The notes under the pieces were generated by a model. The model saw only the letters and a list, made by a program, of their open reading frames with translations, was not told the DNA's origin and did not search any database. The position numbers and the translations under genes are program-made. Shown here one piece after another: positions 43,697-48,324 of a stretch of DNA of 64,000 bases. Source of the stretch: Bacteroidota bacterium. GTDB taxonomy: Bacteria > Bacteroidota > Bacteroidia > B-17B0 > Aurantibacillaceae. The stretch spans positions 1 through 64,000 of the forward strand of contig JANYGK010000005.1 of the NCBI GenBank assembly GCA_025362395.1, given 5' to 3'. Within the stretch, counting starts at the first letter, position 1. Each line of letters begins with the position of its first letter.

Positions 43697-44143
43697 ATGA
43701 AAACTAAATTTGTTGCTATTGCCGCTTTATTTGCAATGCTTGCTACCACAGGCTTCACATCATGCTCAGAATCTAAAAAAGAAGAGGTTTCCGAAAATAT
43801 TGATCAAACTACCAAGGAACTTGATACCAAAATGGAAGAAACAAAAGATGATGTTAAAAAACAGCGTGATGAATTTGTTGCCGAGGTAAATACAAAAATT
43901 GAAAAGAATAAGCAGGACATCGCTGATTTAAAAGCGAAAGCAAAAGATAAAAAAGGTGAAGCGCGTAAAAAATATGATGAAGAAATAGATGATCTTGAAA
44001 AAAGAAATGATAAAATGAAAGCTAAGCTTGATGATTATAAAGATGATTCAAAGGAACACTGGAAAAGCTTTAAAGAAGAATTTAACCATGATATGGATGG
44101 CTTAGGGCACGCTATTGGTGATGTTTTTAAAGATAATAAGTAA
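43697..44143 (+). CDS. Coiled-coil lipoprotein
   Basis: 148 residues: lipobox 'GFTSCSESK' at about residue 23, then an almost uninterrupted charged helix (35-130) of Lys/Glu/Asp heptads ('ELDTKMEETKDDVKKQRDEF', 'IADLKAKAKDKKGEARKKYD'), ending in 'HDMDGLGHAIGDVFKDNK'. Comparable Bacteroidota lipoproteins are envelope-located; function unknown. It follows tspO in the same direction. Confidence 0.85.
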   Translation: MKTKFVAIAALFAMLATTGFTSCSESKKEEVSENIDQTTKELDTKMEETKDDVKKQRDEFVAEVNTKIEKNKQDIADLKAKAKDKKGEARKKYDEEIDDLEKRNDKMKAKLDDYKDDSKEHWKSFKEEFNHDMDGLGHAIGDVFKDNK

Positions 44144-44165: not shown

Positions 44166-44945
44166 CTAACGGATAGTAAATGTATCTCCGTCGTTTAAAA
44201 CGGGGAAAGCATCTCTGAACCGGCTTAAATCATTTAACGATATGCTAACGGTTTCGGTGCTGTCTTCGTTAGCAGTTGTTTTACTTACTATTTCCCCTTT
44301 CGGGTTAATAATAACTGAATCGCCTGTATGGTTAAAATGATTTGCATCTTCACCTATACGGTTTACTCCAACTACATAACATTGGTTTTCTATGGCCCTT
44401 GCAATTAGCAGTTGTTTCCAAGGGTAGCTTCGTACTTCAGGCCAGTTTGCCACATATATTAAAACATCGTAAGGCGCTTCTTTTATATTTTTACTCCAAA
44501 CCGGGAAACGCAGATCGTAACACACCAAGGGACAAATTTTCCAACCCTTATAATTAACTATTAATTTACCGGTTCCCCTAGTATAATGTTCATCTTCTTT
44601 TCCCATGCTAAACAAATGTCGTTTATCATAATATAAAAAAGTACCGTCGGGGTTTACCCAATATAAGCGATTGTAATATGTATTCATTTCTTTAACCGAA
44701 ACGCTTCCTGTAACAGCGCAATTTCTTTCTATTGCCATTTGCTGCATCCATTGTAAGCCTTTGCCTCCGCTCTCTTCAGCATGCATTTCAGGTTTCATGG
44801 TAAAGCCTGTAGTAAACATTTCAGGTAAAATTATAACATCGGTCGCCTCAGTAATTGCCGCAAACTTTTTGCTGAAATGCATTAAATTTTTATCGGGCTC
44901 TTCCCAATAAATAGTGCTTTGTATAAATGTAACGGTAAGGTTCAT
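44166..44945 (-). CDS. Omega-amidase (nitrilase superfamily, YafV-like)
   Basis: 259 residues with the Glu-Lys-Cys triad: E42 in 'IILPEMFTTGF', K108 in 'YYDKRHLFSMG', C142 in 'CPLVCYDLRFPVW'. The 'KRHLFSMGKEDEHYTRG' block points to omega-amidase, which hydrolyses 2-oxoglutaramate or 2-oxosuccinamate. This is the usual partner of glutamine/methionine transaminases, and one is the first gene of this same operon. It overlaps the preceding gene by 4 nt. Cytosolic. Confidence 0.93.
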   Translation of the reverse strand: MNLTVTFIQSTIYWEEPDKNLMHFSKKFAAITEATDVIILPEMFTTGFTMKPEMHAEESGGKGLQWMQQMAIERNCAVTGSVSVKEMNTYYNRLYWVNPDGTFLYYDKRHLFSMGKEDEHYTRGTGKLIVNYKGWKICPLVCYDLRFPVWSKNIKEAPYDVLIYVANWPEVRSYPWKQLLIARAIENQCYVVGVNRIGEDANHFNHTGDSVIINPKGEIVSKTTANEDSTETVSISLNDLSRFRDAFPVLNDGDTFTIR

Positions 44946-45619
44946 TTCATGACTTCTTTGTTATATAATTCAACTACCCTCCTTGCACTCTGTACCCTTT
45001 TTCGTTTAAACATGGGTGTTACAATTTGTGAGGCAATAAAAATTCCTATTGCGTTTAGGCTTAATGCAGAAGATACATTTATGTTTGAATTAGTTCGACC
45101 GGCCTGTGCCGAGGCTATTAAGCATACAATAGCAAGGGCAGGACCGCCAAACCCCGAAATATACTGATTGCTTTTATAATCGCGCGTTTCTATAATGGCT
45201 TTATCCAGTTCTTTATTTCTCCAGGTACGATTTTTATCTGTCGCTAAAAACAACATGCGTTTTTCAGCAATCTGCATATTATTATAGTAGTAAAGGCCTG
45301 CGCGCGGGTTTTCAATAATACCCGCCCGCAAAACCTGTAGTTCATTTTGTACAATTACCTGCGGGCGGGCAACCACAACAGGCCCTGAAACTATAAAAGA
45401 ATCTACCGCTCCGTTTAAAAACTTTATTTTTTTAATATCATTTTTATCAGAAATAAAAACAGGGCCATCCTGCATAGTAAACCGCTTATATTTAATTTCG
45501 GTAGCACTTATTTCCAACACTTTTACGGAAAGCAATTCACCGGTTCTTTTATAAATAGTATCCTGCGCTTGCGTAGCGCTGTAGACAAAAAAATGAAATA
45601 AGATAAGCGTATTTTTCAT
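44942..45619 (-). CDS. Exported paralogue C of a three-copy family
   Basis: 225 residues with a signal peptide (about 1-18, ending TQAQ). The domain 'DTIYKRTGELLSVKVLEISATEIKYKRF..QDGPVFISDKNDIKKIKFLNG' matches its two upstream neighbours. The C-terminal half has two hydrophobic segments ('FGGPALAIVCLIASAQAG', 'ALSLNAIGIFIASQIVTPMF'), probably membrane helices. Family unknown. Its stop overlaps the omega-amidase start, so translation is coupled. Confidence 0.8.
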   Translation of the reverse strand: MKNTLILFHFFVYSATQAQDTIYKRTGELLSVKVLEISATEIKYKRFTMQDGPVFISDKNDIKKIKFLNGAVDSFIVSGPVVVARPQVIVQNELQVLRAGIIENPRAGLYYYNNMQIAEKRMLFLATDKNRTWRNKELDKAIIETRDYKSNQYISGFGGPALAIVCLIASAQAGRTNSNINVSSALSLNAIGIFIASQIVTPMFKRKRVQSARRVVELYNKEVMK

Positions 45620-45659
45620 TAGATTAAATGTAAGTAAAAAGCATTAAATCCAATGCCGG

Positions 45660-46313
45660 TTAAAAAGAAATTTCCTTATTGTAAAGCAGGGCCGCCTTCC
45701 GTATTTTCCGGTTTTTTACTGATTTATAAATCATCCCCGTAATTTCGGAAGCTATAAAAAGACTTAATCCGCTTAAAACAAACGTTTTCAGTTTCTGCTT
45801 GTCCTGCGGCCCGTAATAATTTCTTCTTCCCAAATACAAACCCCCTATCAAAAAAACAGGTCCCGCAATGGTGAATCCTATTTGCGCGCTTTTTTTACTT
45901 TCCGCATTCAGCAACATGTTATTTAATTCATCTGAATTTACCTGCGGGTCGCGCTTCAGCATTATTTTAAAAGCTTCCTTGTGTGTAATGTCCCTGTTAT
46001 CAATACTCATGTGGTTATCGTTTACGATAAACGTTCCGGCTTTATAGCCTTTAATAATAACACCCGATGTTTTTTGAGAAAGCTGAAATCTTGATTCTTC
46101 TTTTCCGTTCTCATAAACAATCCTCATAACCTGCGAGTTCGCTACTTTATAAATGACGCCATCGGGATTAAAAAAAAATTTATAGCTTACTTCTACTTTC
46201 GATATTTCTAAAACCCTTACCAATAAAGGCTCCTTTTCTTTTATAAAAAGTGTATCCTGGGCTTGTAGTTTCCCTAAAACAAAAAGAATACTTATTATTA
46301 TATAAACTCTCAT
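45660..46313 (-). CDS. Exported paralogue B of a three-copy family
   Basis: 217 residues; signal ends near LQAQ. 'DTLFIKEKEPLLVRVLEISKVEVSYKFFFNPDGVIYKVANSQVMRIVYENGKEES' is the shared small beta domain. This copy has an insert near 75-105 ('VIIKGYKAGTFIVNDNHM') and two hydrophobic helices in the C-terminal half ('IGFTIAGPVFLIGGLYLG', 'LSGLSLFIASEITGMI'). The most divergent of the three. Tandem duplication is evident. Confidence 0.8.
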   Translation of the reverse strand: MRVYIIISILFVLGKLQAQDTLFIKEKEPLLVRVLEISKVEVSYKFFFNPDGVIYKVANSQVMRIVYENGKEESRFQLSQKTSGVIIKGYKAGTFIVNDNHMSIDNRDITHKEAFKIMLKRDPQVNSDELNNMLLNAESKKSAQIGFTIAGPVFLIGGLYLGRRNYYGPQDKQKLKTFVLSGLSLFIASEITGMIYKSVKNRKIRKAALLYNKEISF

Positions 46314-46338
46314 GGACTAATACCTTTACCGCCAAAAA

Positions 46339-46986
46339 TTATTCATTATACAAATTTACAAAGGCGTTCCGTTTTTGTTTTAATTTAATATTAAAGGTAA
46401 TCGATAAAGAAGTTAAAGCTATAGCGATTACACCAAAGGCTATAGGCGGTGCTATAAGTGTAGGGTCATTCGTATTACCAAACAAAGATGCTACACTGTA
46501 TACTGCGGTTCCCGCTACAGCCAATGCTCCAAAAATAATTGCACCCGTTCGTGTACCGTCCTGTGCAGGTTTAAGCTTTTTTATAGACAGGGCCAACTGC
46601 GATAACCCGGGTTGCCTTTTGCTGTCGCGATGCGCATGTGCCAAATCTGCCAATACCTTATACTTTACTTTAGTATCACTATAAGTAAGCCTTTCTTTAT
46701 AAGCAGTTATGGATTGATACAGTATTTGTGGTTGAGCGTTTACAACAACGGGAGGCATAATTTCAGTATAACCGTTTTTGTAAATAATCTTTTCAATGTC
46801 ATTTTTACTAATAATAAACACGGGGCCATCCTGCATATCAAATTTTTGATACTTGATTTCTGTTTGTGTTATTTCTTTTAAAACCACCACTAACTTATCA
46901 GCTTTTTTGTAAAAAATGGTGTCTTGTGATTTAGCAATAAAGCAAAAAAATAAAGAAAGGATTAGAAATGTAAATTTCATATTCAA
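46339..46986 (-). CDS. Exported paralogue A of a three-copy family
   Basis: 215 residues; signal ends near AKSQ. 'DTIFYKKADKLVVVLKEITQTEIKYQKFDMQDGPVFIISKNDIEKIIYKNGYTE' is the shared beta domain, closest to paralogue C. C-terminal hydrophobic pair: 'GAIIFGALAVAGTAVYSVASLF' and 'IAPPIAFGVIAIALTSLSITF'. It begins 15 nt after the aminotransferase stop. Confidence 0.8.
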   Translation of the reverse strand: MNMKFTFLILSLFFCFIAKSQDTIFYKKADKLVVVLKEITQTEIKYQKFDMQDGPVFIISKNDIEKIIYKNGYTEIMPPVVVNAQPQILYQSITAYKERLTYSDTKVKYKVLADLAHAHRDSKRQPGLSQLALSIKKLKPAQDGTRTGAIIFGALAVAGTAVYSVASLFGNTNDPTLIAPPIAFGVIAIALTSLSITFNIKLKQKRNAFVNLYNE

Positions 46987-47001: not shown

Positions 47002-48144
47002 TTACAATGTACACATAATTTCAGCCGCCCTTTGCAGGGTTTCTTCTTTTTTAGCAAAGCAGAACCGAAGTAAATGCTGTTGCTTTTTTTTCGTATAAAA
47101 TACCGATAAGGGAATTGCGGCTAATCCTTTTTCCTTGGTTAAGCGAACAGCAAGGTCTATATCGGCTTCGTCGGAAATATTTTTATAGTTTAATACTTGA
47201 AAATAAGTGCCTGTGCAAGGTTCTATCGTAAAGCGTGAAGACGAAATTAATGATTGGAAATAATTTCTTTTAGTTTCATAAAATTGGTGCAGCCCTTTGT
47301 AGGTAGATTCGTTTTTTAAGTAATCGGCTAACGCCTGTTGAAGGGTATGGTTTACACAAAACACTAAAAACTGGTGCACTTTTCTGAACTCCTGCATCAG
47401 TTCTTTCGGCGCCGCTGCATACCCCATTTTCCAACCGGTGGCATGTATCGTTTTCCCGAAAGAAGATACAATAATTGATTGCGCCGCCAACGTTTTAAAC
47501 CTTGCTACACTTTGGTGTTGCTTCCCTTCAAACACCATGTGTTCATAAACCTCATCACTCACCACAATAATATTTTTACCTGCTATCAGTTTTTCAAGTT
47601 CTAACAGGTCATTCTCGGTAAGCGTTGTGCCGCTTGGGTTGTGGGGCGAGTTAATTAGTATCATTTTAGTTTTATCCGTAATGGTATTTTTAACGGTATT
47701 CCAGTTAATGGTAAAACCGGGATAGTGTAATTCAATGGGCTTCACGATTCCTCCGTTTACTTCAATAGCGGGCACGTAGCAATCATAGGCCGGTTCAAAA
47801 ACAATTACCTCATCCCCTTTAGTTATAAAGGCTGCAATGCTTGTATAAATGCCTTGTGTGGCGCCTGCGGTGACGGTAATTTCCGTATCGGGGTCATAAA
47901 CCGCGTTGTAGCAATTTTGAATGAGCAAAGCTATTTGCTCACGCAATGCTAAAACCCCGGGCATTGGCGCATACTGAGTAAAACTATTGCACGTATATTT
48001 TTTAGCGAGCTCCAGCAATTCAGGATTAGAATCAAAGTCGGGGAAGCCCTGTGAAAGATTAATAGCGTTATGTTCTTTAGCCAGGCCGCTCATTACGGTA
48101 AATATAGAAGTGCCTATATGTGGCAATTTTGAATGGATCTGCAT
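47002..48144 (-). CDS. Methionine aminotransferase (YbdL-type, PLP-dependent)
   Basis: 380 residues, class I/II transaminase. 'INLSQGFPDFDSNPELLELA' at the N-terminus, 'INSPHNPSG' (Asn for PLP O3'), 'VVSDEVYEHMVF' (Asp197) and 'SSFGKTIHATGWKMGY' (Schiff-base Lys231) define the KAT/YbdL group, which prefers methionine and glutamine. With the omega-amidase at the other end of the operon it makes the glutamine transaminase-omega-amidase pathway used in methionine salvage. First gene of the unit; divergent from tRNA-Cys. Confidence 0.94.
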   Translation of the reverse strand: MQIHSKLPHIGTSIFTVMSGLAKEHNAINLSQGFPDFDSNPELLELAKKYTCNSFTQYAPMPGVLALREQIALLIQNCYNAVYDPDTEITVTAGATQGIYTSIAAFITKGDEVIVFEPAYDCYVPAIEVNGGIVKPIELHYPGFTINWNTVKNTITDKTKMILINSPHNPSGTTLTENDLLELEKLIAGKNIIVVSDEVYEHMVFEGKQHQSVARFKTLAAQSIIVSSFGKTIHATGWKMGYAAAPKELMQEFRKVHQFLVFCVNHTLQQALADYLKNESTYKGLHQFYETKRNYFQSLISSSRFTIEPCTGTYFQVLNYKNISDEADIDLAVRLTKEKGLAAIPLSVFYTKKKQQHLLRFCFAKKEETLQRAAEIMCTL

Positions 48145-48240: not shown

Positions 48241-48311
48241 GGTCCTGTGGCCGAGTGGCTAGGCACAGCTCTGCAAAAGCTGCTACAGCGGTTCGAATCC
48301 GCTCGGGACCT
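48241..48311 (+). tRNA. tRNA-Cys (GCA)
   Basis: Acceptor GGTCCTG pairs with CGGGACC (one G-U), D arm with GCC/GGC, anticodon stem CAGCT/AGCTG around CTGCAAA (anticodon GCA), T arm AGCGG-TTCGAAT-CCGCT. 71 nt with discriminator; CCA is not encoded. Confidence 0.97.
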
Positions 48312-48324
48312 CAACACAATCACG

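Follow-up and report, generated by a model that had tools for sequence, protein, structure and literature searches.

The question raised by this locus is why three genes for apparently exported proteins should stand between an aminotransferase and an omega-amidase, two enzymes that usually keep company. In the 64,000-nucleotide stretch of DNA analyzed here (the window), all five open reading frames (5/5) were present on the minus strand. They encode a methionine/glutamine-type aminotransferase (AT, 47002-48144), the paralogues A (46339-46980), B (45660-46313) and C (44942-45619), together called the insert, and the omega-amidase (AMID, 44166-44945). The initial annotation had described three tandem, related, exported proteins between the two enzymes, and this description held: BLASTP identified A, B and C as diverged paralogues (E = 1e-23 for A/C, 5e-18 for B/C and 6e-11 for A/B), and export was predicted for each. 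Based on the better fit to homologues, the true start of A is probably the ATG at 46980, with the listed TTG at 46986, two codons upstream, being less likely. The genes are separated by 21 nt (AT-A), 25 nt (A-B) and 40 nt (B-C), and the coupled start/stop claimed for the last junction is a 4-nt ATGA overlap between the C stop and the AMID start (44942-44945). Because promoter-like sites (15 found vs. 14.4 expected from shuffled sequence) and terminator-like sites (6 vs. 4.4) occurred across the region at the shuffled expectation, it is from gene spacing that we infer a probable single transcript from AT to AMID. A recent origin of the insert from foreign DNA was rejected, as base composition gave no hint of one: the GC content of the three genes (0.35-0.38) matches that of the window (0.357). 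Nearby, a protein with an sll1863-family stress-response domain (43697-44143, plus strand; NF052504, 59.7 bits, cut-off 35) has a lipoprotein-like start and lies tail to tail with AMID, and a tRNA-Cys (gca; 48241-48312, plus strand) is divergent from the AT gene.

AT scored 552.4 bits against NF006569 (cut-off 420), which places it in the PRK09082 methionine aminotransferase subfamily. AMID scored 281.6 bits against NF007757 (cut-off 249) and 1.4e-34 against Pfam CN_hydrolase, as expected for a YafV-type omega-amidase of the nitrilase superfamily, the activity being predicted. Orthologues of AT were found in 41/41 genomes, and AMID was found in 19/20 genomes of the genus (the remaining genome, which gave no match, is 76% complete). 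The locus had been read as a methionine transaminase/omega-amidase salvage operon; both enzyme calls hold, but classical methionine salvage is unlikely, since acireductone dioxygenase (mtnD, PF03079) was not found in the source genome (99% complete). The two enzymes are probably a glutamine transaminase with the omega-amidase as its ratchet, as described for alpha-ketoglutaramate (PMC6302742). That pair consists of the same two enzymes that flank the insert here (methionine aminotransferase and YafV-type amidase); the descriptions that we found differ in making no mention of exported proteins in between.

As the initial annotation had proposed, A, B and C share a beta domain. Each protein has an N-terminal hydrophobic segment ending in [AS]QD, a beta domain of ~60 residues and two C-terminal hydrophobic segments. 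The domain lies at 46747-46926 in A (domain alignment and structure model), 46080-46259 in B (domain alignment) and 45380-45565 in C, and the two hydrophobic segments at 46387-46539 in A and 45729-45887 in B. At the predicted cleavage site, each of the 42 two-helix proteins had Gln-Asp (Q19-D20) without variation, and at least 90% of 85 domains taken from various proteins had Q at the mature start. In Bacteroidetes, the Q-rule describes cleavage by signal peptidase I that exposes Gln (PMC5837995); with Gln at the predicted +1 in 42/42 proteins, such cleavage is predicted here as well. In the AlphaFold2 model, the domain of C folds into a small barrel with five or six strands (pLDDT 95.8), and the full-length model of C (pLDDT 90) has a long helical hairpin (44948-45214; helices 136-176 and 180-224) with the hydrophobic segments near its tip. 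The hydrophobicity of the hairpins is modest (Kyte-Doolittle 1.3-2.2). Hairpin matches to chemoreceptors, pore-forming toxins and other bundles were discarded as generic long helices (Z under 9).

None of the three proteins matched a Pfam or NCBIfam family above cut-off, and a sequence search of solved structures returned nothing meaningful. Weak Pfam matches to Gram_pos_anchor, DUF1307 and ApoL (one or a few members, far under cut-off) were taken as chance. The nearest sequence family was NCBIfam NF047433 (Lepto_7_Nterm), the N-terminal domain of Leptospira LA_0442/LA_0875, which matched 32/85 domains at E up to 0.1 (best 5.9e-5). All scores were below the curated cut-off of 43 bits (best 39.2, in a G003 protein; 25.3 in the source genome), and this link to another phylum is weak but repeated. 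When the barrel model was searched with Foldseek, the best match was Hfq of M. jannaschii (E 0.0097, probability 1.00, 1.4 Å over 49 columns, 26% identity); the Hfq matches ranged from 1.4 to 1.6 Å over 45-49 residues, and no Foldseek match reached E 0.001. Comparison with YgdR-type lipoproteins by VIA-align gave Z 6.2-6.5 and 1.9-2.2 Å over 49 residues (for YgdR 3fif, Z 6.5 and 2.0 Å over 49 residues); we take PDB 2k57, 2rb6 and 2rd1 to be members of the YgdI/YgdR (DUF903) family. The Z values are middling and therefore support a shared fold, not a common function.

The YgdI/YgdR lipoproteins are likewise exported small SH3/Sm-type barrels of similar size. They carry a lipobox Cys, however, whereas the insert proteins have no Cys at the mature start (QD in 42/42 rows), possess an extra helical hairpin and show no sequence-family match: no Pfam match was obtained for the YgdI/YgdR family, and NF033216 matched 1/85 domains, at 0.045. 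With Hfq/Sm proteins, the insert proteins have the small-barrel topology in common (five-stranded and Sm-type in the predicted model). Hfq/Sm proteins are cytoplasmic, whereas the insert proteins are predicted to be exported; no Hfq/LSM profile in Pfam or NCBIfam matched any of the 42 two-helix members, and we imply no RNA role for them. The literature on the Leptospira domain, on YgdR function and on the AT-insert-AMID operon yielded no functional lead.

The source genome encodes eight or nine copies of the barrel domain, which is uncommon across the phylum (11/148 evenly drawn genomes). Other architectures in the same genome include an outer-membrane-barrel-like C-terminus beside isocitrate dehydrogenase, a Gly-rich tail and another two-helix protein. 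Relatives also carry the domain on lipoproteins that have DUF4190-like helices, and it occurs in Bacteroidales, where a hairpin is followed by the outer-membrane-like terminal strand GVGLSFNF. Given that the same domain recurs on several envelope architectures, we regard the barrel as an envelope module, that is, a predicted exported Sm-like domain that has no Pfam family and serves as a mobile module in Bacteroidota envelope proteins of several types. The profile of B matched in 15/87 genomes of the taxonomic family, every time at the AT locus. The barrel domain as such is not specific to this operon. At L167:6169-7113 (G000:C43), a domain-plus-barrel-like protein of about 314 aa that ends in GYRF is divergent from isocitrate dehydrogenase; coordinates of domain matches and icd (loci L223-L242) suggest that this pairing is conserved in many genus members. 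Some lipoprotein-like relatives (L029, L034, L035) carry the domain in mid-protein with a Cys inside it (KRCDN or KKCDN), followed by membrane segments (DUF4190-like in L035), and often occur as tandem pairs.

To follow the insert across genomes, we examined 40 relatives; 15 class-level genomes among them could be read, and the genus was represented by 20 genomes. The view that AT and AMID are usually adjacent was borne out in Bacteroidia, as AT directly adjoined AMID without an insert in 12/15 class-level genomes, and one more had a single gene between them. Within the genus, by comparison, one to four family members directly followed AT in 15/20 genomes. AMID lay on the far side of the insert in 13 of these 15 carriers; in the remaining two, AMID was on another contig (G001) or the contig ended inside the insert (G019). 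In G024, which belongs to another genus of the same family, AT is followed by B, C, an opposite-strand amidohydrolase and then AMID, so that the insert has kept its place behind AT although AMID lies apart, as is also the case in G001. The relatives that bear names are uncultured Bacteroidota (e.g., UBA4416, UBA5697). A protein tree resolved four subfamilies (D, A, B and C) with gene order always D-A-B-C, with weak support for the relation between subfamilies and a long branch for G019_773. A strain-specific insertion or assembly error was ruled out, as the gene order recurs in independent metagenome assemblies. The insert is thus an old, lineage-specific tandem family, conserved across the genus rather than unique to one strain (15/20 genus genomes plus G024). 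Its tie to the AT-AMID operon is conserved but not obligatory, considering the five genus genomes without it and the separated AMID in G001 and G024. In G027, the AT-AMID pair is split by another insertion, a GxxExxY-type protein.

The genus members without the insert comprised three with AT directly beside AMID and two with AMID elsewhere. On the AT tree, insert-free genomes were nested among carriers (G014 with G001, support 100/100; G012 with G003, 96/90; G010 with G002, 95/89), and at least 5 gain or loss changes were required. G010 and G002 had flanking genes in common on both sides, and G015 and G004 had downstream genes in common, which identifies these as clean empty sites. The insert has been lost cleanly several times with the enzyme pair kept, and the enzymes can do without it. 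Between the closely related genomes G013 and G018, dN/dS was 0.05 for AT, 0.05 for B, 0.19 for D and 0.14 for AMID; in this one pair, B, the most conserved subfamily, is under purifying selection as strong as that on AT. The locus clearly exemplifies an envelope gene set that a genus has retained within an enzyme operon yet lost on repeated occasions, and its empty and filled sites are natural controls on whether a conserved operon position means shared function.

Taken as a whole, the insert is most likely an envelope gene set that shares the operon, rather than part of the metabolic pathway. We tentatively favor, at somewhat less than even confidence, a specific form of this reading, in which the exported tandem family would be a membrane-anchored periplasmic Sm-like scaffold, co-expressed with the enzymes but not required by them. 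Each protein would leave the cytoplasm through Sec, and signal peptidase I would then remove the leader so that Gln comes first, according to the Q-rule, which would place the ~60-residue Sm/YgdR-like barrel in the periplasm, and the long helical hairpin with its hydrophobic tip would anchor the protein to a membrane. Oligomers are common among Sm-fold domains, and the diverged paralogues, three or four in number, may assemble as a periplasmic binding or scaffold platform. Their position between AT and AMID, with the overlap into the AMID start, would provide steady co-expression and not a role in transamination. Long retention beside AT could, however, also mean a metabolic link, with an A-B-C membrane complex that moves or senses a keto acid, amino acid or ammonia for the AT-AMID pathway. 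We consider this improbable. The linkage to AT is long-standing (15 genus genomes and G024) and persists where AMID is separated (G001, G024), C overlaps the AMID start, and membrane hairpins could form a pore; but three genus members have AT-AMID without the insert and two more have both enzymes apart without it, the barrel is also found on unrelated envelope proteins, and no transporter or receptor family in Pfam or NCBIfam was matched. It is the nested losses that make this reading weaker. A somewhat better, though still low, chance is given to the possibility that envelope genes are duplicated and lost at this site neutrally or under weak selection, the operon position being only a tolerated insertion. 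This would agree with the five or more gain or loss changes, the copy number of one to four, the divergent member in G019 and the GxxExxY-type insertion in G027, but it sits poorly with the fixed subfamily order, an insert common to two genera, the absence of B anywhere else and the strong purifying selection on B in the one pair tested.

The charges around the hairpins bear on which membrane is involved. Net charge at the hairpin tip was +2 to +5 in B (15/15 sequences) and -3 to +1 in A, C and D (27/27 compared, leaving out one D sequence at a contig end), and the tip of A in the window carries no basic residues. Mean net charge before the first hydrophobic segment was -1.4 in B and +2.0 to +3.9 in A, C and D. 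A, C and D therefore have basic flanks and a neutral or acidic tip, and B has the opposite pattern. Supposing periplasmic barrels and inner-membrane hairpins, the positive-inside rule would suit B better than it suits A, C and D, whose charges would conflict with it and so, along with the modest hairpin hydrophobicity, count against the scaffold that we favor. Placement in the outer membrane may account for the contrast, as may a mixed complex whose members have opposite topologies. The former would make A, B and C outer-membrane components, with the hairpin packed against or into that membrane, which we judge a shade less probable than a pathway role. The sister proteins in the source genome with outer-membrane-barrel-like C-termini, the Bacteroidales relatives with the GVGLSFNF strand and the misfit of the A, C and D charges with the inner membrane point in this direction, but the insert proteins have no terminal aromatic strand, the basic tip of B fits an inner-membrane hairpin, and helical outer-membrane proteins are rare. 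Less probable still is that A, B, C and D make up a hetero-oligomeric envelope complex, with the hairpin of B inserted in one topology and those of its partners in the opposite one; such a complex would link the periplasm with the transaminase and amidase in the cytoplasm. That paralogues encoded together should have opposite charge patterns poses a testable question of topology.

Several further observations were made on these genomes. G013 and G018 share 99.3% identity in the isocitrate dehydrogenase region, whereas dS is 0.43-0.58 in AT, insert and AMID (L144/L145 vs. L239/L240), and the AT-insert-AMID locus may have been exchanged by recombination in this pair. G005 and G019 seemed to differ by a fast replacement of the insert, with 98% identity in AT against about 30% in the inserts. 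This was not relied on, because the G019 assembly is incomplete and its isocitrate dehydrogenase resembles that of G005 no more closely than it does those of other genomes. Elsewhere in the source genome, the two-helix paralogue at L169:6372-7019 (G000:C97) shares one base with the beta-ketoacyl synthase gene that follows it, giving another example of the insert family joined to a biosynthetic gene cluster.
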